Below, one piece after another: positions 37,065 through 61,655 of a stretch of 64,000 nt of DNA. Numbering within the stretch: the first letter of the stretch is position 1; each line of letters opens with the position of its first letter. The notes under the pieces are model-generated. The model saw only the letters and a program-made list of their open reading frames with translations. It ran no database searches and had not been told where the DNA came from. The DNA comes from Rhynchosporium graminicola (lineage: Eukaryota > Ascomycota > Leotiomycetes > Helotiales > Ploettnerulaceae): NCBI GenBank assembly GCA_900074885.1, contig FJUW01000004.1:124001-188000 (forward strand), given 5' to 3'. The translations under genes were made by a program, and so were the position numbers.

Positions 37065-40000
37065 TCAGAGTTCGCTCGCAAGCGGACTCCCAGCCAACAT
37101 GCTCGTCTTCCTCGAGAGCGTCGGACGAACACTGACCAGCCCACTCGGCTTCTGCATCCAGTCACTCATTCCATCCCTCTCTTTACGGCCAACGCCATTC
37201 CCGATAATAAAAGGGACCGGACTCTCCGGTCCAATACCAGAACCGTATCCGGATGAGACACTCATAGGCGGCATCGTACTGTCCTGATTGAAAGAGAGAC
37301 CTGGCACGGAAGTCCGTCGACTAGAATCTCCCGTGCGGTAGATACTGACTTTACTGCCCATACCTTCGCGATGGAGACTCGGGCCTGGTGCAGGTCGCCC
37401 CGAAAGCATCGAGACGCGATCCATGTCTGCTGCGGCAGAAGGAATCACCATCCTCGCAGATGGTCTCGCGTGCGCTGGGAGGCTCATATCTTTCTTCGCC
37501 TTTCCAACCCACAACATCTGCTCATGCTCTCTTAGATATCTCTCTCCACTGAAACTCTTCATGACGATATCACGACTTCGCATGCCGAGAGCGCGTCGAG
37601 CGTCAGCTTGTTCGTACATACGGCGCGTGATGCGGGCAACGTCCTCAGGTGTAGGGTCGTGTGGGAAAGTCGAATCTGCCGTTTCACTACTGCACTTGGA
37701 TTTGTCTTCATAGATTGAGAACTCGTCAAGGAGGGCGAGGATCTTAATCTGAGCGCGGGCCATGTCGTGCGCATCATTAGGGGCGACGACGGCGGAGTAG
37801 CAGGCGCCGTCGATGGGAGATGTAAGCACGCGGAGGGAGGCGCCAACGTCGGTGCAGACTACTGGGGCGCCGGTCAGGGCTGCCTCGCCGAGGGCGAGGG
37901 GAAGGCCCTCGGAAATGGAAGAGTTGAGAAATACCCACTAGCAGAGGTTAGTAGTGATCAATCATGAGGTGTCAGCATTGCTTACTGTTCGCTCCAGTAC
38001 ATTGATTGGGTCTGCTTCGCCCTTTAGGCCAACGTTATCACGTAGTGACTTTGTAGCAATGATCTCTTGACAATCAGTAGTGTATGAGGGTGTCTTGTCC
38101 ATAGCACCATAAACCTCAAGCTGGAAATCCTTGAAGCCCCATTTGTTGACGATGATATCGGCTGAAAGTAAGGCAGTCTTGATATCCTTTGCGAACCTTT
38201 GGAAGATTAGTATAAAATTTCTTTAAGTTGGGAGGACCTCGCTTACCAGAGATGGGACAACATAGTAACGGTGGGTTGCTGAGTCTTGATTTCCTTCACT
38301 GGTGCGAATCGCTGAGTATCGTTAGCAACTAAAAAGCAAATCAATCAAACCATGCCAACTCACCTCCATATTCGTGATTCCATTGACGACCGGATCGATC
38401 TTTCTCTTGAATAAGCTCCTGTTCTCGATCTTTCCCTGGGATGTACCAATCTCGACCTCCCAATTGGGGTTGAAGAAGTCCGCACAAGGTAAAATCGTAT
38501 CCGCGTGATGTAGCGTCAGCACACTCGTGATTCTCATGAGACCCAAAAGAGAATTTCTCGTGAAGGGCGACAGGGCGCAGAGCGAAGACGAGAGATACAA
38601 GTTCGTTTCTCGCCAACTGATAGCGTGGTCCCAAATCTGCAATGTGCATCCGCGTTTGATCTTGCATACGATACCGTAGGAAGCGCTCACGCTATGATGC
38701 GAGGCTTGGAAAACAGCTGGCATCTTTTCGGGGATGGGAATGGAGTAGATGAAGAGGTATCGGGACCAAAGCTCAAGACCCTGGTCCAGTTGACCGAGAG
38801 TCGGTAGTTCGGTTGTGAACCATTGAGACGATGGAAGAGCGTTGTCCGCGACCTGAGATAACCAGAGGTTCCTCCAGGCAGACTTGACAGCGTCACTCCG
38901 CCAGACGGCACTCCAGTGGCGACCATCCTCGAAGTAGGCGTTCAAGTTGATCAGAGCGCGAGTAACTTGCTTAATGTCCGCCAGTGAGAAGTCCAGGGAT
39001 CGGGCACCGCGTATTAGAGCTGTGAGAATTGGGACAAAATTGCGCTCGATATCCAAGAAAGTAGTATGTGTAGTAACATGCTCGACTTCTGAGTCAAGTC
39101 GATTGTTGAATAATCCATGGGTAGGAGTCATGAGATCTAGACCCCATAGAGGGATTACTTTGAGAGAGTGGATGTTTCGCTCAATCTGACGTTTGGGGAT
39201 TCCAAAATCGTTGGCTGATTCTGCGACCATGTGCCATTTGATTGTGCGAAGGTTGTTAATGACATCGCTACGGCATGCTGAAACACCGCCACCCTGTCAT
39301 TGTATTAGCATATTGATATTCGCAGACATGTATGATTCACTTACCTCGTTTGGCCACGTTCCAGTATCGACAGCAATGACATGCAGCGCGGTCTCATCAT
39401 CATTCTCAATAGTGACATTCGAGCGAGTCCGGCTGCAGGCGTCACCACCTTGACCAAAGCTATAGAAATCATTGATCTTCATGGCCAAAGGAGTCCAGCT
39501 AGAGACAGTATTATCAAGATCCGTGCTCGCCATGATAGCATCGCGATTCTTGTCAAGATACTGCTCAGCGGCATCGAGCTTGGCCAGATCTCGCTTCCGC
39601 CAGTATGGTGTGAGGACTTCATCGCGGCGAAGGAGGCGCTCATCTAGCCAGCGAACTATAACTCCGTCGAATGCAGGGTCGTCCTTCCATGCCTTCCATA
39701 ACCAAGAGCGGGATTGCGAAGTGGAGACTGGGAAACGGCGAGTATGTAGGCCGAGCCAGCGAGACACTGCCGTTGTTTTAATTGAGTTGAATCCGTATAG
39801 AGGATTATCGTCTAGGAACGATGTATTTGTGGGCTTCTTGAGCACATTTAAATGATCGTGCAAGATAAGATCGGGTGTATCCACCCTCTGACCGTTCAAA
39901 GTCGTAAGGATGGTAGGATGGAACTTGTGATCGTACATATATTTGCTTTCCCAGACATCGGCACCAACGACAAAGGTTGCTTCCGTCACTTGCGAATGGG

Positions 40001-43000
40001 GTAACTATAGAGTGTTAGATGTCGAACGTTCACAGAACTTGGATGACTTACCCAAGTGTCGAGCTTCTCTGGCTTGCGACGAGGTGGCGCGCACCATGCA
40101 ACAGTACAACTCATATGCGGTAAGACGAACTCGGCTCGAAGAAGAGCACCACCATATTTACTAGCCTTTTGGTAATGGTACTTGAAGCGAACCATGTTGC
40201 CATCAAGTAGGTAGGAACCAGAGTCAATCAAACCCTTGTTATTGTAAGTCACATCTTGAAGCACATTCTCACCAGCAATACCCCTGCGGGTGATTGGCTC
40301 TCTCAACACATCACTCTTCGATATGCGTCTGGATGAACCATCGTATGCGGTGGTGCGGTAGTCATAAATGTAGTCGTTGACTGTGTTGCCGTTTTTCATT
40401 TGAACCCGTCGCTTCAGAGACATGTTGTTGGTGTACATGTTCATCGAAATTAAGCTTTGATTCGTGGTTGGCTCTGTCTTGTGGTCCCCCTTATACTGGA
40501 GGAGTTTGAACGTGTCTGCATCGACGGGGTGAATAAAGCCTGTAGAAGTCCCCTCGAGGTTTCGAATCAAGATGCGACGTCTTTTTATAGAAACCTCCAT
40601 ACCGTGTAGATTCTGCCAGACAGAGACGACATTCTTCCTGTTATGGAACAGAAAGATAGGTAGGAATAGCCTCTGAATAGCCTTCGACCAGGCCCAGATG
40701 GAAAGTAGAAAAAATCTCGTGATTACATTTGCGACGTTCCTGTTTCCAGGAAAGCTGCAACGTAACTCTCTCTGAAATTCGGGGTCGGCAACGAACGCAA
40801 TCATGAAGAATTTGCAAAGTTTACCAGCGAAGTGGTACACGACACCAGTGTAGTGGTGAACGTGATCCCAGACTGAAAGCTTGGGAGGAGTAGCATGGGC
40901 AAGCAGATCTAATACGCGAATTGAAGACCCAGGAGTTGCAGTTTCGAGAAGCAGTTGAGACTGCTGAGCAGATTCTGCCTCGCTGGAAGCGATAGAGCGC
41001 TGATAACTTTGTCGTGGCATAAAGCTTGATGGTCTGGTTGAGAACACCGAACGCTCTTGGCTTGCCCAAGCATTGACACGGCTCAGCATACGAGAGCCGG
41101 AGACAACTGCGTAATTGCATCGAGCTACGTATGTGTCGAACGACAAACCAGTTGTATGGTTGAGCTTGTCATTCAACATAACAATTTGATGGTCAGTCAG
41201 TTGGCCAATGACTCCGACGCACCGGTTGATGAGGTATGTACGAAGATCGCCTGGCATATTCTCTGAATCCAGGTTAGTATCGAATCCAAGACAGAGGTCT
41301 CGCAAGATCTGCGTCTTCAGGTAGGTCTGAATCTCTGCCAAGTTCTTGGTCTGGATTTTGAGATGACGTTCTAGAATATCGGGGCCGGTGACACTATTCC
41401 AGATACCATTGCTGAGCCAGAGCGTTCGTGCAAGTAAGGAATCGTGCGTGTTCAAGCCGAGATATCTCTCAGCAGTGACCTGAACCAATAGCTCGGCAAC
41501 ATCCCAATAGAAACCCTTAAGTGGATCCTCATTTGTAGAGACGCGCTTGGTTTCGCAGGCCACGAGGAGTCTAATCTGATCATCCTCAACAGAGCTGATA
41601 GCTCTCATACTGGGGTCTGAGAAGTGATCAACAGACATTAATTCCACGTTGATGAAACGTTCTCTGAACATCTGTATGCTAAGTCTGAGCAACGCATCAG
41701 CATCTGGAAAAGCCCGCTTGGCAACATCAGATAGGTCGGTATCGCTGCATTGCTCGAGAATCAGTTTGACCTGACTCCCGAACTCCGAATCCGGATCAAC
41801 CAAGAGACGCTCCTTATCTGAAAGATCAGAAAGCTGTTCGTAGAGACTCTGCATTTCAGGCTGTGACCATGCGTGATCCGCACCAGGATTCGAATAAGCA
41901 TTGTAGACGCCATCTGATGCTGTCAAAGGACGTATCCTATCCTCAGGAGGCCCTATGATTTTACCAGCCCAGAGCGATAGGATGGCGACCGTCCAGCATG
42001 CCACACCCAGAGCGACAATGTTTGAATAAAGGAAAGTTTCCGGGGCGTATGCATTCAAGATGAAACCAAGTGGTAGACCGATGGCAACAGCTATAAGCAG
42101 AGGTTTCAGGGCATGAGGACCAGAGAAAATCTTGGTGTACTGGTACCACAGAAGGCCGGTATATGCCAAGACATACGACAAGAAAATAATGGTACCCTCA
42201 CTACTCTCAGTGCTGGCGAATAGCCAGAGAAGGGCAGAAGTGACTGCTAATCCCCAAACGTGGAGTAATAAGAAGCTACCAAGAGTCTTCCAGTACACAC
42301 TTCTGCGATTATCGGACTTTTGCTTGAGCGCCTGTGCGAGATCTCCATCAGTTGGAATGACCTCCTCCGTGGATTTCGCAGCAAGCTCATGGAGCTTGTT
42401 GGCATTAAAGTCGAGAAGGACGGCTCCGACAAGGTAATATGCCAAGCCGAAACCGACGGGCATTGTCAAAGAGACGTTACCGAAGGGGAGGAGGCCAATC
42501 AAATCACCGCCGCTAAGGAGGGAAATCCATTTGTCTAGCAATGCGACGATGAAGTATAGCATCGTGCAACCAATCTCGTCACCAGCCTGACGCCAGTGGA
42601 GAAAGCCATTGTGGAATCTAATTCCAAGTTGGGATTTCTGCATGGAAAACAGGGCGACTTTGGTTTGAACGTTCCAGGCCGAACTAAACATGATTGGCTG
42701 TGGGACTCCAGTAAATTGACAGTACCAATTCTAAATAAGTCAGCCATCGGATCGAAGTCAAGTATATTAGAGAAACTTACCATCAGAAAACTTGTGGCCT
42801 CATATGATCGAACCAGCTTGAGTACAAGTGCATCTTTAGTCTTCTTAGAAAGTATTGACTTGCTCCGTTCCGACAAGACATCTTTGAGCAACGCGTCACG
42901 AGCGAATCTCAGTATAGCAGGATCAGACATCTTCTCGATTCCGTCCATTGGCGAAGTCTTATTGTCAATGTACCATGTTCTGAGTGCCTTGTCATCGACG

Positions 43001-46000
43001 AGGTTTATCTTCTGGTACCAAGTGGTCCACTGAGCACCAGTACGGCGAACTCCAAGGAAGAGCATGCTGACGAAAACGTAAAGCACAGTCAAGTAGATGG
43101 CAACATCGTGATTGGGAACGAACATTGTGACAATCGGTGACACAAACAAGATGGGAATACAAAAGATGATGGTTGCTCGACCCTATGAGATCTCAGTATA
43201 AGAGTGAAAGTAAGGAAATTGGAATACTTACTGATTGGAATGAAGATCCGATGAATTGATAATTGGCCAGAGCCGCAAGAAGTGAGAGATATGTCGTCAA
43301 GACCATCAAGTACAGGAAGAAGAGTAGCGCATTGTAAACAGAAACCGTGCATGCAAAGGCAATGAATCCTACAATAGCCACAACGAGAGTGAATGCAAGA
43401 CCACCGAGTAATCGGGTGACTACGAAGTAGTTCATAGCCGAGAAAGCCATTGAAGCAAGGTAGAATGTTCCACCGCATGTGATCCAAGTGCCAATTGCAC
43501 CAGATAATAAGAGCGAGATCATCAACGCGGTTGTAGCGCTATGCTGCTCATCATGTGTCATATACTCATGTCCTTCTTTTCCACCACTGAGATACAAACC
43601 GTGCCCGGTGGTTGTGAGCATGAGAATATCGATCAGGGCAGGAATAGCGAACACACTCAAGAAGGTGAATCTCTTATACGATGCCATCTCGGTAGGTTTG
43701 TAGTTTGGATCTACGTCGATTTGCGCCTCCGCATAGGCCGATGGAAGCGCAGTCATGGTGTCCTTAAACATAGGGGGCTGGTTCTCCGGTAAAGAGTAGT
43801 GGGCGCGGTATTTTGCGGAGAGAAGTTCTCCGAACTGGCTGGGAGAGCAGTCAAAGTAAGACTCGCAGCGAGATCCGAGAGCGAAAAGCTCAGCAAATGC
43901 AGCTGACTGATCTGTTTGATCGTTGAAGAGTGGATTTCTATCAGTCACTTCAACATAGACCTCATCGAAGGCTAGTCTTCGCATGGTACAGAACACTGCA
44001 AGTGCGTACAAGTCGCCAACAGCTGCATAAGCGATGTTATTGAGGAGTTTTTCGAGGGCTTCGATGATTATCTTGAGTTTGGGATGACTCCTTGTCCGCA
44101 AAGCTTCTTCGATTGCTGCCTCTACATCGTGGAAGAGTGCTATTGCCGCTGGTAGATTAGGATGACGGCGTTTGGCTTGGCAATGCCATTGGAGGCGCGA
44201 TTCGAGAAGTTCCGTAATGGAGATGTCTCCATTCAGGTATCCGACCGTATTGACAGTCTTCAATTGATTCCAGTTTGGAACATCAACCAAACGCTCCATA
44301 GCAGCCGATTTAATGCCGTAAAGGATGAAATCTTCTTTGGCATTAGGCGCAAGAGAGACGCGCTGCAGCAAGTGAAGACATTCTTCAGGTGAGAGAAGCT
44401 CAACATCTTGTACAAGTCTAGGCGGGATATTGTGAGAGGATGTGAGTTTCTTGTTCCAGCGAGCGAAAGAGGTTTCTGCAGCGATACATTCCCTGCGTGT
44501 CAGACCCCGGCAAGACAGGAATGTATGGAGAAGTGTGCCCATAACATCATTGACAGTCTTCGAGATGTATATATCAGCCGTAGCTTTGGTGGGGTAAGCG
44601 TGGTAAACAGCCCAAAATTGCTTCTCGATAGTACGCTGAAATCCCGAATGGAGTCCAAGGAAAACCCGGATACCATCAGAACCATCGTCAGGAGATGCCA
44701 TCAGTTTCTTTGCCATGATTTCTATAGCACGTGACACGGAAGGTACTCCAGGGGTTGAAGGCTCCGAGGGTAGAGTGGTTACAGCTGCGAAATTTGCGAA
44801 GGTGGCACCGTATTCCCGGAGGTCAGCCGGAGTGACCGAGTCCAACAACTCCAGCTTTCTCAGATTTCTCTGAGAGAAGATGACCTCTTGAAAGTCATCG
44901 CTAGAAACATCCAGCCCGACGGGAAAGCATCCAAGTCCATCATAGGAAGCTCCGGCTGCAGATGTGCAAAGAGGGTCTCCACTAATCCCGTCTCTTAACA
45001 CGAACCATTCCATGTTTTCTTGGAAATCAGATTTTTCCTTGGACAGGTCGTCTGGTTGCTCGTCATGAACGCAAGTGCAGTCGTTCTTTGCATCCTCCAG
45101 GCTCGGTAACATCGCGCCGAGATGTCCAATGACAGAGTGACGATGGTTGGTATTTTCGATCTGAAGTCAATGATGTTAGCAATACTTGGTAAACAACGGC
45201 GTGCCGCCATGAAGAGGTGCTCACGGATTTCCTGCTTTTCCACATATCGTGGAGCTCCATCACTTTAGGTTCCTTCAGCCAAGCGAATGCGCTCAGCGGC
45301 TCCATCTGAACCACATCCAAGGTTGCATTCATAAGTGCGCTTTGCGATCCGATCCATGAGACTACACTGTAGAAATTACACCAAGCGAATGTTCTTTTTA
45401 GAACTGCGTTTGGAAGAACTACATCGTCGTCCAATGTCTCCCAGACGAAAACAGTGAAGTCCCTGACACATGATTGGGATACGAATGATTTCGCTGTCGT
45501 TCGGAGAGGTTCCATATCAAAGCAATCCCGTCTCTCACCATCTGGAAGCACAAGCGCATTACGTATTATAAGACCTGAGATAGAGCTACAGGCTAGCGCG
45601 CTACCATCCGCGAGGAAATCCGGCGCGGATGTCTCGACATATATTTCAAGACCAAAAGTGGAAATGACAGCGCAAAGCTCATGGAAGACTGGTATTGGGA
45701 AGATCTCCCAGCCTGCTAACAGAATTCCCGTAAAATCATTTTTGCCACCCTCTGAGTTTCGGAATGCCGTGATAATCATGCTCATAGTGCGATCTAGACA
45801 TGACAGGACATATTTTGACGATTGGCGAGACGGTGCCGCGTCCGTCAAGACATTTGCCAAATCCAATCTTCCGATTACACGCCGTGGAACTTTTTCGCGC
45901 CTAGATAATTCTGCCAAAACTCTTGGGATGTAGCTTTGTAGAGGATTGAGAATAATCATGTCCCGTTCCGAGAGCCTTTTGCATTGCGCATCGGAGATTG

Positions 46001-46421
46001 GGGACTCGAAAGTGCCCAGATATATGCCCAAAGATGTCGGTCTCTTGGAATCGAGTTTCTCTAGGGTTGATTCCGGCGAGGATGAGGCGACATACTTCTG
46101 CAAATGGCGCGCGACGCGCTCCTGCAAGTGCTTCGATGGCCCATTCTGTCAACAAGGTGATTTGTTAGAACCAACTCCATATCTGAAGCGTAAAAGCCGG
46201 TGGATTCATGTACCTTCTGTCTCGTGTGTACCCATAGTTTTCTCAACAGCAGGAATGAGATATATGTACTTCCCACAAAAATTGAAACCAGAGCCAAGCT
46301 GACGAGCACCTATTTCATATTAGAAGAGTGAGTAGAACTCAACCGGATGCATTACCAGCTGCCACCAATGTTGCCTCAACTCAGTCCAGTTCCCAGCGTG
46401 GACACCAGTGATGTATGCCAT
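37065..46421 (-). CDS. gtb3: Gtb3-type membrane glycosyltransferase (PelF-like GT4 domain) of the galactosaminogalactan cluster, eleven exons
   Basis: This is the predicted polymerase/exporter of GAG, using UDP-GalNAc and UDP-Gal at the plasma membrane. Exons in coding order: 46356-46421, 46214-46309, 45225-46145, 43232-45160, 42781-43182, 40052-42730, 39345-40004, 38364-39293, 38247-38311, 37986-38196 and 37065-37937. All joins keep frame, giving about 2943 aa. The start is the ATG at 46421 (MAYITGVHAGNW); the next exon would otherwise begin with GTG. One membrane helix lies at about residues 23-45, and a dense cluster of a dozen or so helices between about 830 and 1430. The GT4 part begins near 2230 with AVDTGTWPNE-GGGVSACRSDV, like the G..RGGVS start of bacterial PelF. 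It carries the EX7E motif (Glu 2663 and 2671, EGLPLALGE) followed by GAPVVCTDVG. The tail is Ser/Arg-rich and disordered. The gene is divergent from agd3 across 3.5 kb. Identification rests on the domain and its neighbours. Confidence 0.88.
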
Positions 46422-49400
46422 ATTGTCGGTAAGGAAATTACCAAAGAGTCATCGCCATATGAGTACAGTCCAGAGGTTCTCCTTTTCGAACAGGCGAAAT
46501 GGGGTGCTATCGAGCAAGCGAGCTTCTGGCAAAAGCAAAGTTTCAGATGAGCAAATTTTCGGATGAGCGAAAACGAAGATCTCAAGGAAGATAGGAAGAT
46601 AAAGATTGAAGCCTCGATAGCTAAGCCTCGGCGATCTTAGACGGAAACAAATACTGAGTGACAAGCTATGAAATCTTGAGAAGCCAAGCGCAACCTTCCC
46701 TGCCGAAGATCATCAATAGTCCCCAACTTCGAGGCTGGGGGGAACGAAAGTTTGGCCTGCGGAGTCACCATCACAACACAAATTGCATCGGATGTATCCA
46801 GCCCCACGGTCAGGATAGAACTAGCAAGCCTCCAATATTTCCCGAAAGATCAACAATAGCATGAAGTGCAAAACATGACAGTAAAACAGCAGCAACGTGG
46901 GTCCACGATTCACCAAGACCAAGGACGGTGCTTGGCCGGCCTGCAGTTTGACATGAACAAGGCGAATGTTCGAGCTGGCCACACGCCGTGTCTCATTATA
47001 GTAGAAAGTAGTAGAGCGGTCAGACCGCCACTCGTATAGCCTGAGTTGCAAGTATATTCTGAAGCAGCTCTGCTGTTCTTGGTATCAAACGGCTGAAGTT
47101 GGGCCGTACAATAGCCGTCGTCAGCCAGCTAGCTATCCGAGCTGCAGAACCAAACTGCTCTAGGGTCCCCAGGCAGGTATCATTGACGGATTGATATTGG
47201 CAGGGGTAAACAGCACCGCTTCTGCATCGAGTGAACTTGAGGGTCTAGTAGTCAAGCCTGGGCCAGCGCTTGTCTGCCACTTATGCATCTCAGTATGGCT
47301 AGCTGCGCTAGTGACGATGGACATCTGACTAGCCGAAGAGGATACAACGTCGATAGAGATCGAGGCAGGTCTTTGAACGCTGCTCGCGAGATGTGAGTAC
47401 CGTCCGCAGTCAGTCAGTCGGTCACTAGCCGTAGTCTCCTGAAACTATTCCCTGAGGCAGATGGGATCGGAGAAAGGGACCAAGCGAAGAAACATTGAGG
47501 AGGGATGGGACATTGATCGTGAAGTCATACATCTCGTTTCCGAGCGACAGTGCGCCCGCGAACCTTAAAGTTCACCGTTTCAAGACACGATACGATATGT
47601 CGGGAAAAGAGGAAGAGGGAGGAGTGATCGACCCAGGACCACAAGACAGTTCCGGGTTTGCGGGGTGACAGCTCTGGAAATTGGAATCTCGCAAACCCCA
47701 GCCTCAATCCCTCCGCTTGACAATTAATGTCCCCTAACGTCAGGGTGTCAAGGAAAGAGACATAATGGAGCTCGCACTTCTTGAGCCAGCCATATTCGGA
47801 ACGCCATAGCTAACAAATACAAATGGTCCAGGGCCGTCCTGGCTAACTAAGGTAGGTTAAACAGCTAACATCACAAAGAGGACAAGACGTTGAGGATAAA
47901 CGAGGCTTGGTAAGCACGGAGAACGGCAGATACCAACCAGCACGTGACGTGAGATTAGGGATTAGGAGCGAATGAACATATTGAAAGCGGCGTCAGGGCA
48001 AGCGAGCAAGGGTTCAAGCCAGCCAGCGTCAGCATCTGCACGAGCACTACTCTATTTTAGTGGGAATTGAATTTCCCTCCCCGCTCGCTGCTTTTGTTTG
48101 CACTTCTCCACTGGGGACAAGAGCTGCTTAGTAGTAAAATGCGCTAAGGTAGACAGACAGATACCGACCTAGTCTATTCTGGGTATCTCGTAGCTTGCCC
48201 TTTTTTCAAATACCCCCAAGTCCCGCGACAACCTCCGAAAATGTATATTTTACTACCCGTGGCGTCGCCAATAACAAAATCCTCGACGCCATTGTGCTTT
48301 GCCGTCTAGCACAGGACAGCACGTCACATCCACATCTCAAATCTCACTGCATATCACGAGATCTGTCCGACACCGAGTTGCTTCTTCCGGGAACTGAACA
48401 AGCACTTTCTTCAGAAATGGTTTCCACACAAATGGAAATGGAAATGAACATGAGACTTCCTACGAAAACCTGCTCGTTGGGACTGTCAGGGTTGATTTGG
48501 AGTGGGAGGTGTCTTTAGAGGTGAGATATTTTGGGTTTCTCATCGAAGATCTTTAACTTAGCTCTCGGACACATAGCTTAAGCTTAAGCTTAAATGCCCG
48601 TGCTATACCGTAGTATAGTTGACCATGTCACCTGAAGTCGACCATGTCAAAATCATTCCTGCTCCTCGCCCTCTTCCTGAGGTTCTTGCCCGCCGTCTTC
48701 CATACTTCCTGTCCCCATCACAGCCATCGGCGAAATGCGATCTCTATAGATACCTATCTACACGACCTACAGAAAACCACAAGTCAGCGGTTTAGGAAAT
48801 TTCCTCCTTGCATATCGTGTTATGCACAACATGCCTCTAGCGGCGCAAAGGGCGAGCTTGGCGCTTCACATCTCGGCTCCGCCTCCTTTAGCTCTGCAGG
48901 CCTGGTCTAAAAAAAGGTAAAGCTCGTGTCAAAAGCGGACCTAGTCAGCCAATGAAAGGCTAGTGGCCCCGTCGTACCCCTGAGATCGTCCGGTCCCGAG
49001 CCCACCAGTGACACCATGGACGACTACCCACGACCCCTCGAGCCCTATCGCGGCCCGAACACAAACTTCAGAGGACGATGTATGTACTGTATGTACATTA
49101 TGCATGCTCGTACCGGTAGGAATTCGATTTGCGCGGCCATTTCCATGCTCATGCTCGATGACAGTTGATCACCTCTTCTTGTAGTATCTCTAGGATCTCT
49201 AGTCCCTAGTATCTCTAGTATCTCTAGTATCTCTAGTACCTCTAGTATCTCTAGTACGGCAGACTTCTCCGAGTACGACGAACTGGCTCCCATCAATGTC
49301 ACTTCTATGACTCCATTCCGGTCAGCCGGCAGTGTAATCAGTCAGTACCCAATGCCATGGCACCGATCCGATGTTCTCTCCTGTACTGTAGCTCGGTCTG

Positions 49401-49913: not shown

Positions 49914-52499
49914 ATGTTGACCAAAACCTTCTTCTTCAAGGCCTTGCTTGTGGCAGCCTCCGTGTCAGGAGCTCATGCGCATCCCCAGAAAAATACCAAC
50001 GCAGTGTCTGAACCCGTCCAGTCTCCTGCACAGGGTGGAGGAGTCGCCGCACCTGCAGTTGTTGCTACCAAAGACGCAACGGGTAAGTCAAGCTTTAATC
50101 CCCCCNNNNNNNNNNNNNNNNNNNNNNNNNNNNNNNNNNNNNNNNNNNNNNNNNNNNNNCCCCCCCATGCTCCTACGGCCGGGTACCCCAACAGTCAATC
50201 AAAATATAGATTAAACTGACTCCTCTCTAGTCAATGGCAAGACTGTTGCTGCCAATACCACTGTCTCGACTCTGGCTGTCGCTGCTCCGGCTGCAGTCGT
50301 CGCAGGCACAAGTACCAAGAGCACTATCCTGATCTTTGCTCGTGATGCCGCCTCGGCCTATTCGGCTACCTCGGGTCTCAGTGGATATGCCATTCCATAT
50401 CAAGTCGTGACTGTCCCTCAGGCTGGTGTCACGCTTCCCGCACTCAACAGCTCTTCCACGGCTGGTAACTACGGAGCCATCGTCATCCTGTCAGAAGTCA
50501 GCTACGACTATGGTGGAACTGTTGGATTCCAAAGTGCTCTTACTGCTGCTCAACTGGCAGCGCTCTACCAGTATCAAGTCTCGTTCGGTGCCCGCATGGT
50601 CCGAATTGATGTCTTCCCCGGTCCGGCTTACGGAACATCTGCCATCGGTGGTTGCTGTGGCGCAGGTGTAGAGCAACTCATCAGCATCTCAAACACTGCA
50701 GCTTTCCCAACTTCTGGAATAAAGACTGGAGCTGGTGTTTCTACTGCTGGTCTCTACCATTACCCTGCCACCATCTCCAACGCGACCATTGCAAGTGAGT
50801 TTGCGCAATTTGGCCCAACCACAGGTTTCCTAGGCACGTCCACTGCTGGTGTCATCAATAACATCGATGGTCGACAACAGGTAAGCACACCCACCTGTAT
50901 CTAGTAATATTCATATTGACTTGCATCAGATGGTCTTCTTCATCGGTTTCGCTACTGAATGGTCTTCGACTTCCAACTACCTTCAACATGCCTGGATCAC
51001 TTGGGCGACAAGAGGCTTATGTATGTATGCAAGCCAAGATTTCGAGCTGCGGCTAATCATGTAACAGACACTGGTTTCCGTCGTATCATATTCAGCAATC
51101 AGAGTAAGTTCTGCTCCACAAGTTTAATGCCACCAATTAGGCTAATCATGCATAGTCGATGACATGTTTTTGATCTCAGACATTTACCGACCCGCCGGCA
51201 AAACGTACAGACTCACCACGGCTGATTTGGACCAACACGTTACCTGGACCAAGGATATCAATTCTCGTTTACCCGCCGGAAGCCAATATTTCCTCGACAT
51301 CGGACACAACGGCAATGGCAACATTGAAGCCGGCGCTGATCTTGGTGGTAACCAATGCGGTATCGGTCCAATTGAGTACGACGAGCAGATCGATACCCCG
51401 CTCGAGTTCCAGAAGCCTCTCGGCACCGGCACTAACCTCTGGCCATCTACTCCAGCCAACTACCCATACACCACGGCTTGCACCGACCTTGATGCCATGA
51501 AGGTTTGGTTCGCGAAGCCTGCCAACCGTGATGTCTTTGCTCACGTCTCGCACACCTTTACCCATGAGGGCGAGAACAATGCTACCTACTTTGATGTTAA
51601 CCGGGAAATTGTATGGAACAAGGCATGGCTCAACCAAGTCGGTATTGCAGCCGCCAATAAGTTCAGTGCCAACGGTATCATCCCTCCTGCCATCACTGGG
51701 ATGCACAACGGTGATGCTATGAAGGCATGGCTCGACAACGGGATCAAGTACGTCGTTGGGGATAATACCCGTCCTGTCTTGATGAACAAGCAGAATGAGT
51801 TCTGGCCACTCATCAGTACCGTCGCTGATAACGGATATGCCGGTGTAACCATCGTTCCTCGTTGGGCTACCAACATCTACTACAACGTATGTTATCTTCA
51901 TCCCACGATCAAACCAGATACTAACGAAGCAACAGTGTGACCTCCCAGCCTGCACAGTCCAAGAATGGATCGACACATCCGCCGGCTCCGGCGACTGGAC
52001 CGCTCTCCTCGCTCTCGAGAAGGCAACCAACACCCGCCACCTTCTCGGTCTTCACCACGACCCTTACATGTTCCACCAGGCCAACATGAACTACCAAACC
52101 GCAGGAACAACCACCATCAACGGCGTCACCAAGAAGCTTTCTCTCGTCCAAGCCTGGGCCGAGACCGTCACTCAAGAGATGATGCGCCTGGTAACATGGC
52201 CCATGGTCTCCAAGAAGCACGATGATCTCGCACTTGATTTCCTCGACCGCATGGCCAGAGACAACTGCGCCCCGCAGCTCTCTTACACGACCAACCCCGC
52301 CGCGAAGACCATCACAGCCGTGACCCTCACCACGAACAGCAATACCTGCTCGGCCAAGATCCCAGTCACTGTGCCTGGCACCGTCACCAACACCCAGGGT
52401 TTCACGACTGAGAAGTTGGGCTCCGACCCTCTGACAATCTGGGCCAAGATGTCTGGGCAGCCAATCACCTTCACTTTGAGTACGCCTGTCGCGTACTAA
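49914..52499 (+). CDS. agd3: Agd3-type secreted deacetylase of the galactosaminogalactan cluster, six exons
   Basis: This is an extracellular metal-dependent deacetylase (CE18 type) that removes acetyl groups from GalNAc in GAG, giving the polymer positive charge and adhesiveness. Exons 49914-50082, 50231-50880, 50930-51020, 51068-51103, 51156-51886 and 51936-52499 join to 2241 nt, giving 746 aa. The ATG at 49914 opens a signal peptide (MLTKTFFFKALLVAASVSGAHA). The upstream in-frame start at 49893 is only a TTG. A Ser/Thr/Ala-rich linker is followed by the N-terminal module (STKSTILIFARDAASAYS), then the catalytic fold with FLDIGHNGNG (Asp about 363) and SHTFTHE. The latter contains His448-x3-His452, fitting the H(S/T)xxH metal motif of polysaccharide deacetylases. 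Further conserved blocks are TGMHNGDAMKAWLDNGIKYV and LLGLHHDPYMFHQANMN. The assembly gap at 50106-50159 lies inside intron 1 and does not touch coding sequence. It is divergent from gtb3. Confidence 0.93.
50106..50159. other. Assembly gap (54 N) inside agd3 intron 1, flanked by C-runs
   Basis: Unknown bases are bordered by CCCCC on the left and CCCCCCC on the right. The GTAAGT donor (50083) and TAG acceptor (50228-50230) lie outside the gap, so the coding sequence is intact. Confidence 0.95.
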
Positions 52500-53135
52500 G
52501 CGTTCGTTCGTGCAATTTAAATTGATCTGTTTTCGTTCTGGGTATATGCAAGCACGGTAATCAGGAGTTGAAAAGAATGGTCCGTCTTTCTTGGGTGTAA
52601 CATCACGCGGGGGAGGCAGGGGCCTACGGTCTACAGGGCATGGAGTACAAGCACGCAATCCTTGTGCACATGGAGTATACGTATCACGGCCTCGATATCC
52701 ACCCACATTAACATGGGAAATGGAACACATATTATTTCTGTAGTCTTTATTATTTTATCTTTAATCGAATCAAGAAATACACGAAAATCTATCGCGCACT
52801 CCAAATTTTTCTCCGGACCTTGTTCTTTTCGTGTCTCCCTTTCCGCACAATAATGCCACATCCCCTGCATCTGACTAATCATACCTCGGTATAAGTACCA
52901 TCAGCAGTGCTGTTCCCACCTAATAACACACACAAAAGACACCCACAGCAGCCACTTCATGCATGCATTGTATAATTTCCCTCGACATCGCAGCACATCA
53001 AACCCTCCCAATGCAATTACTCACCTCTACTATACCTTCCTTACCTACGCATACACTACAACAGCATCTGCATCAGCATCTGCACAGCGACATAAGACAA
53101 GACTGATCGCAGCGCGGGGTCACAAATAAGCCCGA

Positions 53136-53168
53136 TATGACATGACATGACATGACATAACATGACAT
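53136..53168. repeat. ATGAC pentanucleotide repeat
   Basis: About six ATGAC units, one carrying a T-to-A change. Confidence 0.85.
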
Positions 53169-53766
53169 GGCTTGAGAACTACCGTCATTTGCCTAAGAAG
53201 CTCGCTCGATACAGCTCGTTCATTCATATAAGTAATAATTAAATAAAGGAAGAGATAAATCAGTAGAATAAATGAATACCCTCCGTGTACTATACTCCAC
53301 CATACCACACCAATACCCCCTACCGTACTATGATATAGCATGCATTGTACGATCATAAAAGCAGCAAGGCAATGTATCATTCTCAAGGGTCCTTTTCCCT
53401 ACGTGTATTCCATTGCATGGTATTCTACTATATTATGTCGCGAGTATTGCGATAGGGTAAATTAAGAAGGCAGGGCAGAGAAGAAGAAAGAGGGCAGGGT
53501 AGAGCAGGATAGGGCAGGACAAGACACGTACCCTGCACATACAAGCTAGCAGGTGCTTCCTCCGTAGGGAGATTCCGTCTTTGTTTTAGACAAGAGAATC
53601 CGCAGCTTGGCTTGGGAATTTCGCTTTCCTCACTTCTTTTGACCAATTTTACATCGTATGCTCGCTGTTTGTTTCTCCTTTTTATTTAGACTTTGACTTT
53701 GAGAATTCGCGAGAACGTCTCGGTTGAGTGGAGCGATCGATGGGGATGGGATGGGATAGGATGTGG

Positions 53767-53798
53767 TGCTATGCTGTGCTGTGCTGTGCTGTGCTGTG
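53767..53798. repeat. TGTGC pentanucleotide repeat
   Basis: About six units of TGTGC, the first with a TATGC variant. Confidence 0.85.
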
Positions 53799-54563
53799 TG
53801 TTTTGGATTGTTTGATTGTTTGGAGGTAGGTAGGTATCAACCTGGCACTGCTTCTTTATTCCACATCTTTCAGAATCTTCATATTCTATCCCATCCACAA
53901 TACCCTCCCTGTTAACCAAACGCTTGTTTATTACTTTTCTATCCATAGTGCCAGTCACGAATGCAGAACCATATATACATGCCCTTCCGCTTCAACCATT
54001 CATGTAGCATTTCCCCGCAATTCGCTGCACGCCTCCTCCGGCCTCCACCTGTTCTTCTGGTAATGTAACCTCATATTACCACTCAATATGTACGAGTACG
54101 TATTCATCAGCCTCATGCATTGCATGCATCACTGCAGGGATGCAGCCTAATAGCTGCTCTCACACGTAGGTCTAGATGTGTTCGAATCTGCAAATTCGGT
54201 AGATGATGCCATCTTTGAGCTATGCAAGCAAGAAGTACCTCATACCATCAACATCACAAGTCACATCACGTCTCACTGCGCCACTCACTCACTCACTCGC
54301 CACCTTACCGACTTTCTCGCCAACTGCAACAACATACGATTATTAACGATCTGCCGCGCTTCTTTCCATCCCAAAGAAGAAACCACACCCACGAGAAAAA
54401 AAAATTCAAAAGATCAACAAGATCAGAAAAGTTCTCTCTGTATGCACGCCACACGCTGCAAGCTGCACGTAAGCACAGCACAGCACAGCATAGTGTCGTC
54501 AAAACCCCTAAAGCTGCACGCATAGCGTCACATGTGCATGCATGCACATCAAGCCCTCCACAA

Positions 54564-54566
54564 AAT

Positions 54567-54630
<64 letters not shown>
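54564..54630. repeat. AAC trinucleotide repeat, about 22 units
   Basis: Nearly perfect AAC/CAA repeats. Frames crossing it give poly-Asn, poly-Thr or poly-Gln, or poly-Leu on the minus strand, and are not genes. Confidence 0.95.
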
Positions 54631-54668
54631 CATGGACAAGTACCACGATGCGGTACGATACCACCCCC

Positions 54669-54700
54669 ATCCTATCCTATCCTATCCTATCCTATCTTAT
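54669..54700. repeat. CCTAT pentanucleotide repeat
   Basis: Six CCTAT units about 40 bases after the AAC tract. Confidence 0.9.
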
Positions 54701-57700
54701 CCCCTGCCCACAGGCTTTCCAGAATATCCCAGAAATATCCCTCGCCGCGTGCAATACTTCGAACCAATCCCACCTCCTTGTCATAGGACCCTGTTCCTGT
54801 ACCTGTCCCGAAGAAGGGGGTGATAAGTGACCTGTCTTTTGCTTGGACATCCATCAGCAGCTAGCTCATCTCGGATTCTCGTTTCTGGAAGCAGGCAGGC
54901 AGGCAGGTAGGTCAGCCTTGCCAAGGGAGGAGGAAGGGAAGATGTGCAGGGTAGGCAGGCAGGCTTCAAATCGATATTCGTTACGTAAATATTGGGTTGT
55001 TTTGGGAAGTTTCCTGGCTGTGGAAAGCGCTTTTCTTTTTGTCTTTCTTTGGAGGAATATAGGCATGGGTAGTGAGTGGGTGGTTGTCGGCGCTTTGTGC
55101 TGGTACGCTGTGCTTGAAGCTACGAAGACGATGTTTTGAGATAGAGATTGAGGTTACAGTGTAGCGAGCGCGGTCCGTCATGCTAGCTGGTGTTCGGACG
55201 AAAATGCCGTGTTCGATAACGAGATCTCTTGTATTCATCGTCATTCGAGGATTCTAAGTAAGGGGTGCCGTAAGTGGATAGGTGCAAATGTCAAAAATAT
55301 GCACAGAGTAGCCATTCAACCTAAGTCTCGTCCTGTTAGATTCCAGCATCCTTCACAGCACAACGGCCTTTGACGGAAGCTTGTTTCCTGAGCTGGATTA
55401 AATTTGGGAACAACATACCATCGATGCAGTGGCCTGTCAATGTGTGGTGCCAGGAAAGATGTAGTTGTACATCGTACCACAGAGCAGCATTGTCATCTCA
55501 ATCACGCCTTCCCAAATTCCGACCTCGTGTTCTCTGGTCCGGGGAGCACGACATGAAAACCAGAAGATACGACAATACCGCCATTGCCACAACATACCAT
55601 GGTGTAGCGACGTCCACATTCGAATTCGGACGAAAGCGCACACTAGAATACAGTTACACATGTTTGGGGGTAAGTCGTGAATTCTTCCTGTCAAATAAGC
55701 GAGCCAGCTGCGAACCGATGTCTGATGTAAACACAGCCAGCTGCGGGAGCTCCTTAATCGTGTTCAATTGTGCCTGCTGCAGCCCACCAGTCTCTTCTTG
55801 GGCAATGCAACGTTCCAGCAAGCATTAGTGTAGGAGACTTAAATCGAGGAAATGTATTGCAACCCAGCTAGCTGCCTTTCCATAATCCCTGAAACATCCA
55901 AGGCAGAACAGTAGGGCGAGGTATAGAAACATGACAAGGCAGTCTCTGGAAAAGCAGCGACTAGTCGGTTGTGATCCTAGGTATATTTCACCGATCGTAT
56001 AATGACCTCTCAGCCACAGCGTATAAGCGCTAGACTTCCGGCTACCAAATCATTGCGTGAGACCCTCCAAACCACAACTCTGATCCTGCTTTATCGCCAA
56101 GTCACATTCCCAGCCTCCGCGGGGAAAGACACGGGAAGCTTACTACCTTTTCAATAAATCGAACATCGTTCAGCCTCACCTTGGCTGACTCGGAATAGGC
56201 CAAATCAAGAAAGTGAGGCTTCATCTCCCAAGACGGCTGCTCGTCCAACACGTAAGAGCCAACCCAAAAGGATATTTAAACCGACATGCGTTGGATTTCT
56301 AGTTTCCAAGATCTGTCCAAGGCCGTCTAGGCGGGAAGGGGAAAGAAATAAAGAGGAAGAAAGCTAGGCATAAGCATAATGGCGTGGCATCGCATATTCG
56401 GTACGAGAACACTTGTTATCTGTTTTCTTTGTCCCCAACGGCAACGGGGACATTTTTTTTCATCGCTTCGCTTGGCGTTTGTTTACTTGATTATTCCATG
56501 TTCAATTTTAAGCCTGTGGAACTACCCGCAAATAATATCCTATGCAATCCGGCCGTTTTGGGGGGGAAAAAATCTCCGTTCCTTGTTCGGGTATAATCGT
56601 AGTTCAAGAATGCTTCTTTTTTGTTTTTTTGTTTGTTTTTCTTCTCAGCTTGATGGAAGTGTAGCTCAGCTTGGTTTGATTCTTGACACACGCCACGCAA
56701 GGTCTACAGATTGAGAAGGTTTGGTAGAGACGACCCTGGGTAGAGCACTGTCAGAGGAGAATGACAGACGCCACGAACTTCCTAAGTTGCCTCATTCGCA
56801 GCTGTCTTGACTCGTTGTCATGGCTCGCATGATCAGTGACGGCTCGCGACTGCGACCTTATTCTGAATATGCAGATGGGGTAGATCTCAAACATGGCTCG
56901 CAAATCTTTGAAGCCATTCGCGATGTTTGGAAACGCCGTATCATCAACGATCACGAGAGTGCTTCACCGTGTCGAAGGCTTCGGATCTCGTTCTTGCCGC
57001 ACCTCATAACCATCACCATCCTGCATGTTCCGACTCATGTGTTGATTCTATTGATAGCATAGTTCCATCATAAGGCGAAGAAAAAAATGAAAACAAAGCT
57101 CGCTTGCCGTCGCTTCCCGAGGAGAATTTTACCTCCACATCATAGTCATCCCCCACCTTGCAGAAAGTACAAAAGCAATTAGCCCGGCAAAAGATCCGAA
57201 AACCCACACCCCGAGCCCGTAATCGAGTGCTCTTCCTTGCAGGATGTACTTGAGTAAGACACGTACCGCTCTTTGAGCCTATCTTGGCGTCGCATCATCT
57301 AACCCAGCTTGCGGGTCGCTTGTATCGTTCCGTTAGACTAGTTCAAGACTAAATCGAGCTTTGGAACTCTGACATTTGCCGAGCGTAAAAGCGATTGTCA
57401 ACTAAAGTAGACGTCTATTTGGAAGACCTTCTCGCTGTTTTGGCCATCGCCATCGCGCCATCTGGTAGATAAGATTCTAGTTAATATCTGAGAGCTCTCA
57501 GACGGCATCGGACCACGCCGGCTGATGAAGGAGCGGTCTAAAACACGGGACATGATTTATGAGAGCCAAGGGATTGTTCGTTTCTCGGTACGAAGTTTGT
57601 GGAGGCAGTTAAGAGCTCCTAATCGAGTACTGTACCCAGATGCGTCGATAGATACTTACTAACTGCAGACTGGTTCGTGCTCATTACAATAATCCTACAC

Positions 57701-60356
57701 AATCCGTAAGTAGAAGTGCAAGGCAGCTCTAACCTCATAAGTCTTTTCCCGGAAGGGTTCACCCAATCAGCTGCGAAATGGCTGAAGCCTCAATCCCTCT
57801 TGAGACGGGGTGCGCTGACATACTAGGTTTCTCCATTAGCTATTACGCCACCTTGATACATATCACGTGGCGTGAGCATGAGGCATCGACTTGGAGACAT
57901 CGGCTCGAGGTGCATGCCAGCGCATCATCGCGTCCACCATGGCAATGAGGAGCGCTTTGCTAGACATCTGCCCTGACCATCCGAGCTGATCATTCTAACA
58001 GCCTGACCCTTGCAAAAAAGGTACGAACCAACGAGAGTCAGCCAAGAAGGGAGCTGGCTAAGTATGCAGGTTCAGTAAAAATTTGGCATAGTTGGTTGGT
58101 ACTGCCGGTCCTTACAAAGCATGGCCTGATATCCATAAATATGAACGTAGTCCTGTACCTGGTACACAATTTGCTACTCTCGTGTCCACATTTATCGGCG
58201 TATCTGGCGGTTATCTCGTCTTGATCGTGATCTTGTCTATCAGATCGTGAAGAAAAGCCAAATCTGCAGATCACTCCACTGTCAAAGCTCTTGGATAAGC
58301 CAAAAGAAAAGCGTAACCTCAATGAATAATGTTTCAGCGCCTACTAGGGAACCCGAAAGCTTTCAATTGGGTCAAGTGGGCGTTTCCACACCTCATTCGT
58401 CTAAAATAGCAAAACCTGCATCTGCTCCTCATCACCCAGTGAAAAAAAGCAATGAGAAGAACTTTGATTGACCCGGTGCAATGATCCCAACAATCACACC
58501 CTGCAACCCCACATTGTCAAAATCGAGGGTCCAACTAAGATCTTTCTTTGCGCCAAGCGCTACCACATCCGACCGGGATTATATTGGGATACGAGCTAGC
58601 CAGAGGTCGTTTCAAGCTCGATTTGACGCATTCAATTGGCTTTTCAGACGAAGAGGGTTTTGCTACTGAGCTTTCGTAGTAGGGCATCAGTACTGCAGAT
58701 GCTTGTACCCATGGTTTGGCACGTTAGAGGCTCTCAGTCGTTGAAAAAAAGGGACATATTGCATGTTAGACTGAGCTTAAGAGCAGTCTGGCGGGCAGCT
58801 AGGAAAGTGACAAGCTCTTTTGAAAACTTCCCACGTCGCACGACAACTTCAAACCACTTCCTGGTAAAGCGAGGCGTTCCAGCGCAGACGCAAGGACACC
58901 AACGAGGCAATAAACACCGTACTGTCTTGGAGCGGGTGCTGTCTCCTATGGGTAGATGGCTAAGCATACAGTCAGCTGTCTCAGTCGCACCTACGTCTCA
59001 ATACTCAATTCTCGATTTCCAGCTTTGTTGAAGCTTGGGTGCCCAGAAAGTCAAGATTCAGCACCATCTTTTCACCAGACGAGGTCCTGATGGACGAGTT
59101 GTGAAGTGATTGAATCTAGAATCCTAGTTTAACTGGATGAGTGCCTATGTATATATACTTGATACGTGCGGTTCTTCGATCAGCGTGTCGAATCCAAGAG
59201 TTGGTGTCAAAATAGCGTGGAGATTGATCATCTCCAAGCTTTCGAGGAGCGGGACAAGAGCGGAGATCTAATATTCCAAGACGGCGACCAAAACACCAGC
59301 CTCGTGTTTCGACAATCCCACATGTAGCATAACTGGCGAGAATGCGAGTGATTCAGAACAGCAAATGTATCCAGCATCGTGGCATCCAGTATGTTCAAGA
59401 AGATGGACCAAGCTCCTCGTTCGTGTCAGTTGTGATTAGTAGCAGATCTGGCATACTAGCTATGACGGCGAGAGACCATGCATAGCGCTAAGCGATCCTT
59501 GTCCTTGTTAAATGCCGCTTTACAGCACAGAAAAGGATTGCTGCTTTAATCCGAACCAAGCTTGATATTGGTCCAAGCTTGATATTTCCGAGACGGGATC
59601 AAAGCGGAAATCGTTTTCCAAATTCCTCATTTATCACTTACCAACGGAGTCTCCGGTGGCTGAAATCCGATAGCTCTATCAATATTGTCTTAGACAAACT
59701 CCATTTGTTGTAGGTTTTTTGCTTCGCGATGGGCCAGCCATAGTGTAAAGGGAAAACAATAACTGTGCTTCTCGGTTCTGTTACAGGTGCGATATTAAGT
59801 GGCGGTTCACTGGTTCATGAACACGCCTAGGGATCCCGAGCCCATACACCCAAAAGAGTAAGTCATATAGGGCAGTTGGTGTCAGGGGTCGGTGATATTC
59901 ACTTATCGACCATAGTAAGATATTCCCAGTGTCGTAAATCAACTGAAGAAGTGCCATAGCGCTCGCCCCTTGGAGAGTACCTATTGCATGTAAGCAAAGC
60001 CAAGTCTTTGGTCGTCAGGAAATTCGTGATTGAAAGCAATTGACTGTCCACTAAGAATTGTGGGACTGGAACAAATTTTCAAAGTGAGTTGCCCGAGAAG
60101 GCTCGCCCGAGAAGAATCGGCCGATGGCTCGAAAGAAGCGGGCTCTGAAGCTTCGATGAGAAAGCGACTGGCTCAAGCCTATGATGTGGTGCCTTGCACA
60201 AGCTAGAACAAACGATCCTCATTTCTAGCCCAATCAGAACAAGTATGTAAGGAACGTCTTCCTCCTGAGCTTGTTTCGATATTTAATATCTATGAAAAGC
60301 AATCCACTTACTTGGTTCAAGCTACTCGGGTTTTCATAGACTCATTGCAATTCAGC

Positions 60357-61655
60357 ATGTTGAACTCAGAGGTCAATACTCCTAGTCTCTCGCTTGGCAG
60401 CTCGATATCAGATGCTGGCACTCCAGCCACCCACAGATCAGCCCTCTTCGACCCGAGCTCCAATGACACAGATAGAGACTACATTCTTGTCGTTGGAGGT
60501 CTTGGGTATATAGGTAGTCATACTTGCCTAGAACTGTTGAAAGCAGGGCACAACATTTTAATCGTCGACAATCTCAGCAATTCCTTTCGAGATGTGTTTG
60601 ACAGAGTTTCGTCACTTGCGACCAAATACCACGATGAGCGTTGTCAAACAACACCTCTGATGCGTTTATGCGAAGCAGACTACCGCGACGAAACATCTAT
60701 AAGGCAGTTTCTTGACCAATATGTTAAGCCTTCCACTTTGCACGATGGTGATGCCGAAGGATCGCCCAAGCAGTCATGGATCAAAGGTGTGATACATTTC
60801 GCTGCATACAAGTCAGTTTCGGAGAGTTTATCAAACCCTCTCAAATACTACGCCAACAACGTAGCTGGCATGATTGAATTCTGTTCTGTGCTGAGCGACT
60901 TCAATATCAAAACGTTTGTCTTCTCCTCTTCGGCAACAGTTTACGGAACTATCGCGAATTCCGGACTACCTCTGCGGGAAGAATATTGCACACACCAGAC
61001 CGAGTCCTTTGTCGATCATGATGGTGCCTCCAGGACCACTGAGGGCGGCTGCTCTGGACTCACGAACCCATATGGAAGGTCAAAGTGGATGTGCGAAGCG
61101 ATCCTTTCTGATCTTGCTCTGGCAGACCCTGAATGGACGATCCTCGCCTTGCGTTATTTCAACCCTGTAGGCTGCGACGAGTCCGGGCTCCTCGGTGAAG
61201 ACCCTAAGGGCATCCCAACGAACCTCATGCCCGTGGTTGTGAGGGTTATGACAGGAGTTTCGGAGCATCTCAACGTGTTCGGTACAGATTATCCTACCCC
61301 TGATGGGACGGCTGTGCGAGACTTCATCCACGTGACGGATTTGGCTTGCGGTCACGTCGCAGCTCTCTCTTCCGCATTCGCTGGCCGTGTATCTAAGGGT
61401 TTCCGAACCTTCAACCTAGGCAGCGGAACGGGTTCTTCTGTGTATGAGGTTGTCCATGCACTCGAAGCAGTTTCGTCGAAGGAGATTCCTCTACGAAACG
61501 TACCGCGTCGAGAGGGTGACGTTGGATCATGTGTTGCGCTTGCCCAGCGGGCAGAGGTCGAACTGAAGTGGAAGACGCAAAAGTCTCTAGAGACATGCTG
61601 TAAAGACATCATGAATTTCTTGGATCATCAAAAGACAGAGTCGGCAAAGGTCTGA
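60357..61655 (+). CDS. uge3: UDP-glucose/UDP-GlcNAc 4-epimerase of the GAG cluster (Uge3-type), intronless
   Basis: This is a cytosolic NAD-dependent short-chain dehydrogenase (extended family) that interconverts UDP-Glc/UDP-Gal and, for Uge3, UDP-GlcNAc/UDP-GalNAc, the donor sugars for GAG. The first in-frame ATG is at 60357, giving 432 aa; the frame is open further upstream, but only from a TTG at 60312. After a 43-residue Ser/Thr-rich extension comes the Rossmann motif GGLGYIGSH (about 47-55). The catalytic Ser lies in FSSSATVYG (189-197), and the catalytic pair is Tyr239-x3-Lys243 in NPYGRSKWMCE. Epimerase-typical blocks follow: ALRYFNPVGCDESGLLGED, GIPTNLMPVVVRV, YPTPDGTAVRDFIHVTDL and FNLGSGTGSSVYEVV. 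The name uge3 rather than a housekeeping GalE rests on proximity to gtb3 and agd3, so specificity is inferred. It reads in the same direction as agd3, 7.9 kb downstream. Confidence 0.9.
   Translation: MLNSEVNTPSLSLGSSISDAGTPATHRSALFDPSSNDTDRDYILVVGGLGYIGSHTCLELLKAGHNILIVDNLSNSFRDVFDRVSSLATKYHDERCQTTPLMRLCEADYRDETSIRQFLDQYVKPSTLHDGDAEGSPKQSWIKGVIHFAAYKSVSESLSNPLKYYANNVAGMIEFCSVLSDFNIKTFVFSSSATVYGTIANSGLPLREEYCTHQTESFVDHDGASRTTEGGCSGLTNPYGRSKWMCEAILSDLALADPEWTILALRYFNPVGCDESGLLGEDPKGIPTNLMPVVVRVMTGVSEHLNVFGTDYPTPDGTAVRDFIHVTDLACGHVAALSSAFAGRVSKGFRTFNLGSGTGSSVYEVVHALEAVSSKEIPLRNVPRREGDVGSCVALAQRAEVELKWKTQKSLETCCKDIMNFLDHQKTESAKV

Follow-up and report, generated by a model that had tools for sequence, protein, structure and literature searches.

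A putative galactosaminogalactan core locus in Rhynchosporium graminicola, with unlinked hydrolase candidates and remains of a second lineage beside it

Introduction

The closest described counterparts of the locus reported here are the galactosaminogalactan (GAG) clusters of other fungi. In published accounts five GAG genes stand in one cluster (PMC4817252, PMC8224951, PMC13245733, PMC11356417). According to the respective reports, deletion of VdGtb removes GAG in Verticillium dahliae (PMC13245733), deletion of the cluster abolished GAG in Metarhizium robertsii (PMC8224951), and galactosamine (GalN)/N-acetylgalactosamine (GalNAc) was much lower in a synthase mutant of Neurospora crassa (PMC11356417). 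A bacterial parallel is the Pel system (PelA-PelG). We analysed a window of 64,000 nucleotides from Rhynchosporium graminicola (positions 124001-188000 of contig FJUW01000004.1, labelled C56 here, in an assembly of 55.3 Mb in total). A preliminary description, made from the letters alone, had proposed a partial GAG cluster with the order gtb3-agd3-uge3. By its sequence the locus is of a known kind in a variant layout: three of the five genes are linked, a second lineage survives beside them as tandem remains, and another contig (C52) carries a further core of different ancestry.

Results

Three core genes in the expected order

Gene models and family matches placed gtb3, agd3 and uge3 in the proposed order, far beyond what chance would give. 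Positions without a contig label count from the first letter of the window.

46421-37065, minus strand: gtb3, GAG synthase, 11 exons, 2943 amino acids (splice model)
49914-52499, plus strand: agd3, secreted GAG deacetylase (CE18 plus CBM87), 6 exons, 746 amino acids
52500-60356, no strand: gap between agd3 and uge3, 7.9 kb, occupied by two genes in relatives with the five-gene layout
60357-61655, plus strand: uge3, GalE-type 4-epimerase, single exon, 432 amino acids
63611-64000 in the window and on to 64168 beyond its end, minus strand: remains of a second-lineage gtb3 (blastx, C-terminal pieces only)

The stop codon of gtb3 ends at 37065 and that of uge3 at 61655. Locus tags gave the same relative order, gtb3-agd3-...-uge3, in Paecilomyces lecythidis (Gtb3 006727, Agd3 006726, Uge 006723) and in Scytalidium (g9236, g9237 and g9240 for gtb3, agd3 and uge3); two genes separate agd3 from uge3 in both, as they do in Cirrosporium. 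Tags of five further pairs put three genes in the gtb3-uge3 interval of Aspergillus nanangensis, A. brasiliensis, Endocarpon and Penicillium argentinense, and two in that of P. alfredii. The tags are widely separated in A. melleus (agd3, gtb3) and in one Mollisiaceae species (uge). The A. fumigatus cluster likewise has gtb3 beside agd3, with uge3 farther along.

The synthase

The gtb3 model and its two domains are laid out as follows.

46421-46356, 46309-46214, 46145-45225, 45160-43232, 43182-42781 and 42730-40052, minus strand: gtb3 exons 1 to 6
40004-39345, 39293-38364, 38311-38247, 38196-37986 and 37937-37065, minus strand: gtb3 exons 7 to 11
37734-38402, minus strand: PelF-like GT4 domain of Gtb3, residues about 2549-2721 (coordinates derived from the exon table)
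45225-46145, minus strand: predicted (beta/alpha)8 barrel of Gtb3, residues 55-361

All 10 introns are of the GT-AG type and 46-68 bases long, and the protein differs at 8 positions from the annotated R. agropyri protein P0241, which likewise has 2943 residues. A search with residues 2050-2750 found 420 proteins at E ≤0.001 among 6875 candidates. Among the best 120, which were listed, P0241 was the closest named Gtb3 (100% over these residues), and A. fumigatus P0261 (2893 amino acids) was 68% identical. A simple hydropathy count gave 10 hydrophobic segments, and the protein is of the multi-pass synthase type with a C-terminal GT4 domain. In a tree of 37 rows, built by a quick method with 35 of the 120 listed matches, the window Gtb3 grouped with Cadophora, Drepanopeziza and Diplocarpon (100 in the Shimodaira-Hasegawa-like approximate likelihood-ratio test, SH-aLRT).

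The earlier label of a PelF-like GT4 membrane protein is borne out at the domain level but does not extend to a PelF equivalog. In the near-identical P0241 the GT4 domain matched Pfam Glyco_trans_1_4 (9.6e-13), and PelF (NF038011, an equivalog model) was the best NCBIfam model (E 1.3e-15), its score of 57.5 bits falling short of the 100 bits set as the curated cut-off. Neither PelG nor PelD of Pfam was matched at E up to 1. The window copy carries the E-x7-E motif (SEGLPLALGEA) in this domain. On these profiles Gtb3 is PelF-like, not PelF.

The N-terminal barrel is predicted to be nearest in fold to GH191, GH166 (PelA) and GH114 galactosaminidases; a profile comparison of the barrel with GH114 gave no support. 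The catalytic pair expected in such a barrel is an Asp where strand 4 ends and a Glu where strand 6 ends, with strand numbers from our own reading of the Ega3 sequence. We found no conserved Asp at the first place, and Asn at the second in 39 of 40 sequences. The barrel may lack the catalytic pair of the galactosaminidases.

The PelF-like GT4 domain and this galactosaminidase-type barrel suggest galactosamine chemistry, and the sugar ratio is unreadable from sequence. The product might then be a related but different polymer, for example a Pel-like chain of pure GalNAc/GalN in place of a galactose-containing GAG. We consider this unlikely in view of the 68% identity, over the residues searched, to an A. 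fumigatus protein similar in length; the A. fumigatus cluster is reported to yield galactose (Gal) plus GalNAc (PMC4817252).

The deacetylase and the epimerase

A protein-to-genome alignment script, given the same protein as its guide, returned an identical agd3 model, which is a check on the script.

49914-50082, 50231-50880, 50930-51020, 51068-51103, 51156-51886 and 51936-52499, plus strand: agd3 exons

The protein had been described as a signal-peptide deacetylase with an HTFTH motif, and both points hold. It matched the Agd3 domains of Pfam (CBM87_Agd3 2.9e-80, Agd3_CE 1.7e-122, Agd3_C 6.3e-29), and its N-terminus is signal-peptide-like by eye. A search of all predicted proteins gave 761 matches at E ≤0.001 of 7996 scored; among the best 120 that were listed, the closest named Agd3, from R. 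agropyri, differed at 3 of 746 positions. The only PDB sequence matched was A. fumigatus Agd3 6NWZ (E 1.4e-277), with 61.5% identity over 659 aligned residues. The catalytic residues shown or named in the account of that enzyme, D377, D378, H510, H514, R613, M666 and H668 (PMC7229062), are all kept in the window Agd3, with HTFTH as the metal-binding H510/H514 motif. The protein is thus of the Agd3 type, CE18 plus CBM87 with catalytic motifs CM1-CM4. A tree of 52 rows (47 selected from the 120 listed matches, four Rhynchosporium copies and 6NWZ) placed it with Cadophora, Drepanopeziza, Diplocarpon and Marssonina (100/99). A run of N bordered by C runs, either a gap or a masked stretch, lies in intron 1 (about 50106-50159), outside the coding sequence. 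The predicted Cudoniella acicularis protein P0029 (1095 amino acids) holds Agd3 and GH114 domains together, either a true fusion or adjacent genes merged in annotation.

The assignment of the third gene as a UDP-sugar 4-epimerase agrees with a GalE equivalog match (1e-99). Uge3 has a Cys at the substrate gate, in the place of the gate Cys of human GALE. This Cys is present in 119 of 120 listed proteins, the window Uge3 counted, with one gap; Leu occupies this position in C52:646.8k, the one further GalE-like gene that the genome was found to hold. Uge3 is accordingly a GalE-family epimerase of the gate-Cys type. Its relatives among the matches listed come from Helotiales, Aspergillus and Penicillium. 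The family identities are supported by these comparisons: Gtb3 and Agd3 matched A. fumigatus proteins, and for Uge3 the relatives include Aspergillus. A tree of 31 rows, 30 of them from the 120 listed proteins, placed Uge3 with Leptodontidium (97/88) inside a group of five rows (100/99).

Hydrolase candidates are unlinked

The cluster had rightly been called partial. Neither a GH135 sph3 nor a GH114 ega3 was found at the locus, and a tblastn search of the 7.9-kb agd3-uge3 gap, with protein pieces from this genome as queries (two GH114, three GH135), revealed no ega3, sph3 or recognisable remains of them. Similarly, by locus tags only, Uge (L3040_002633) adjoins Agd3 (L3040_002634) in the GAG locus of Drepanopeziza brunnea with no annotated gene between. 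The gap holds an AAC microsatellite at about 54565-54631 and other simple repeats, seen by eye.

Genome-wide, Pfam Spherulin4 (GH135) gave nine matches at six places (10 candidates scored) and Pfam GH114 four matches at three places (three candidates). None lies on C52, and the sole one on C56 sits 577 kb beyond the right-hand end of the window (C56:765192-765884, a GH135-like gene unlinked to the cluster). The GH135 gene at C75:1996k had the two spherulin-4 entries as its best PDB matches (4.4e-37) and consists of two frames requiring an intron; the GH114 gene at C116:794k had Ega3 as its best PDB match (5e-98). By eye, the N-terminus of both includes a hydrophobic stretch, as in membrane-anchored enzymes. 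These two genes would be the likeliest source of Sph3 and Ega3 for the window locus.

Remains of an older lineage in tandem

The gtb3 relic at 63611-64168, 390 bases of which lie within the window, consists of three C-terminal pieces. A stop codon lies inside each of two of the three, and between two of the pieces some 100 residues, the GT4 core among them, are absent. In blastx, identities of the three pieces were 71, 70 and 60% with Leptodontidium P0347 and 68, 67 and 60% with Oculimacula P0303, against 45, 56 and 37% with the window Gtb3 and 48, 52 and 37% with the C52 copy. Summed bits were 243 for Leptodontidium, 236 for Oculimacula, 153 for R. agropyri Gtb3 and 152 for the C52 copy.

The plus strand then carries a second agd3 at 65899-68929 in window numbering, which shares 53.3% identity with the window agd3 and keeps the tested catalytic residues. 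It may be intact; a stop-free model needs 13 proposed introns, some perhaps wrong. Its protein fell with Hyaloscypha (98/94), weakly with Venustampulla and Cudoniella (89/77), and with Sclerotiniaceae (100/99), apart from the window Agd3, and a tree test rejected the two agd3 copies as sisters. Because the kin of the relic and of the second Agd3 differ from those of the window copies and the sister relation was rejected, the adjacent pair is, on sequence grounds, what is left of an older second GAG lineage (lineage B) in tandem with the window genes (lineage A), and not a fresh duplicate. Leptodontidium, which among the matches listed holds both the closest uge3 relative and a lineage-B gtb3, fits such an old tandem layout. 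Between the relic and the second agd3 (64200-65890) the dinucleotide indices are 1.01 and 1.05, near the usual values for repeat-induced point mutation, unlike the surrounding genes.

Since the hydrolases are not linked and three C-terminal pieces are all that survives of the neighbouring gtb3, the whole locus might be decaying, ega3, sph3 and the lineage-B gtb3 having been lost, lineage A being on its way out and the C52 core having taken over GAG. This is very unlikely, given that the three core genes have open frames and canonical introns, that key residues are retained, and that the residue differences from the annotated R. agropyri proteins number 8 of 2943 and 3 of 746, silent changes being uncounted.

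A second core on another contig

Contig C52 carries a further uge3-agd3-gtb3 core in the same relative order as in the window, with stop-free models.

C52:1304890-1306314, minus strand: Uge open frame, 54% identical to the window copy
C52:1308853-1311494, minus strand: Agd3, 58.3% identical to the window copy
C52:1313470-1322229, plus strand: Gtb3, 46% identical to the window copy (1245 of 2718 aligned)

C52 Gtb3 grouped with seven Dothideomycetes (SH-aLRT 99), and forcing it among the 22 Leotiomycete rows was rejected on the quick tree (approximately unbiased test, p-AU 0.00024). C52 Agd3 grouped with Oculimacula and Rhexocercosporidium (100/100) and then with three Dothideomycetes (100/98); forcing the trio into Leotiomycetes gave p-AU 0.032. 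C52 Uge grouped with Eurotiomycetes and Cirrosporium (97/95). The C52 core genes thus group outside Leotiomycetes in these trees, and they may stem from transfer from a Dothideomycete-like donor or from old paralogy with losses.

These placements, together with the full set of stop-free models, raise the possibility of two GAG-type machines: the window locus would make the ordinary Leotiomycete polymer, and the C52 core, possibly from a Dothideomycete-like donor, a second one with another sugar ratio or for another stage. We hold this to be plausible, if somewhat short of even odds. The C52 branches are long (0.63 for Gtb3, 0.9 for Uge), and Dothideomycetes were not among the rows of the Uge tree. 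Differential loss of an ancient paralogue fits as well as transfer does, and the modest Agd3 rejection comes from a test with a solitary, long-branched fourth Agd3 excluded. That fourth agd3-like gene (C56:2635041-2637509, minus strand) keeps the tested catalytic residues and was unplaced in the Agd3 tree.

Other features of the window

Elsewhere in the window we noted the C-terminal domain of Mediator subunit 16 at 3102-4061 on the plus strand (PF20719), a DUF7603 frame at 9063-10964 on the plus strand (PF24554, E 6.6e-34), and an ammonium transporter gene of at least two frames at 17858-19160 on the minus strand (Pfam PF00909).

Discussion

We propose that the window locus is a GAG core, lineage A of an old two-lineage arrangement, which is served by Sph3 and Ega3 from unlinked genes and has lineage B beside it as remains; we put the probability of this reading at about 0.86. 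Under it, Uge3, judged by its family and gate residue, would supply UDP-GalNAc and UDP-Gal by 4-epimerisation, and Gtb3, by orthology a membrane synthase with a PelF-like GT4 domain, would link the sugars and export the chain. Secreted Agd3, with its Asp-His-His metal site, would then deacetylate the chain and make it cationic and sticky, as demonstrated for A. fumigatus Agd3 (PMC7229062). Sph3 (GH135) and Ega3 (GH114) would be provided by unlinked genes, most likely those on C75 and C116. In lineage B the gtb3 is broken, and the agd3 is perhaps still a gene. The capacity to make polymer most likely rests with lineage A and the C52 core alone, and the window locus would be a producer of GAG in Rhynchosporium. 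The reading with two machines is compatible with this one.

Three points weigh against the proposal. Sites of the StuA-type pattern were not enriched across the whole window (42 observed against 43.0 expected), so the known co-regulation is not visible through them. An A. fumigatus sph3 mutant makes no GAG according to a review (PMC8647848), so a locus without linked sph3 depends on an unlinked gene being the true partner; N. crassa hyphae without the GH135 gene are reported to have remained adherent (PMC11356417). Finally, the C52 core could be the main GAG source, with the window core for another stage or polymer; in view of that core, the window locus may be neither the sole nor the main source.

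With the A. fumigatus cluster (gtb3, agd3, ega3, sph3, uge3; PMC4817252) the window shares orthologues of Gtb3, Agd3 and Uge3, the catalytic residues of Agd3, and gtb3 beside agd3 with uge3 farther away. It differs in that ega3 and sph3 are unlinked, remains of a second lineage adjoin, and a second core lies on another contig. The clusters reported from M. robertsii, V. dahliae and N. crassa have the same core genes, but hold all five in one cluster where three of five are linked here. In comparison with Pel, PelF is the nearest NCBIfam model to the glycosyltransferase domain of Gtb3, and the predicted barrel most resembles GH191 enzymes and the hydrolase domain of PelA in fold; the fungal Gtb3, however, is one chain instead of several proteins, and its deacetylase is separate and belongs to CE18.

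A more speculative picture, which we regard as doubtful, joins these likenesses. The fungal GAG synthase would be a Pel-type machine in one chain. Its PelF-like GT4 domain would connect across the membrane with an N-terminal barrel of galactosaminidase fold whose catalytic pair has been lost; by the charge pattern at the first membrane helix, this barrel would face the cytosol and hold the primer or nascent chain rather than cut it. Two of these machines would work side by side in Rhynchosporium, the native one at the window locus, which has no linked hydrolases, and a three-gene core on C52 gained from a Dothideomycete-like donor.

In several fungi surface attachment is determined by GAG, a cationic adhesin, and its loss is reported to weaken cotton disease caused by V. 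dahliae (PMC13245733). Why hydrolases that cut GAG are needed to make it is a question raised in a review (PMC8647848), and a plant-associated fungus that has two cores and lacks linked hydrolases is a natural system in which to test it. The barrel within the synthase, if real, would bring a concrete new part to that question in GAG-making fungi, Neurospora included.

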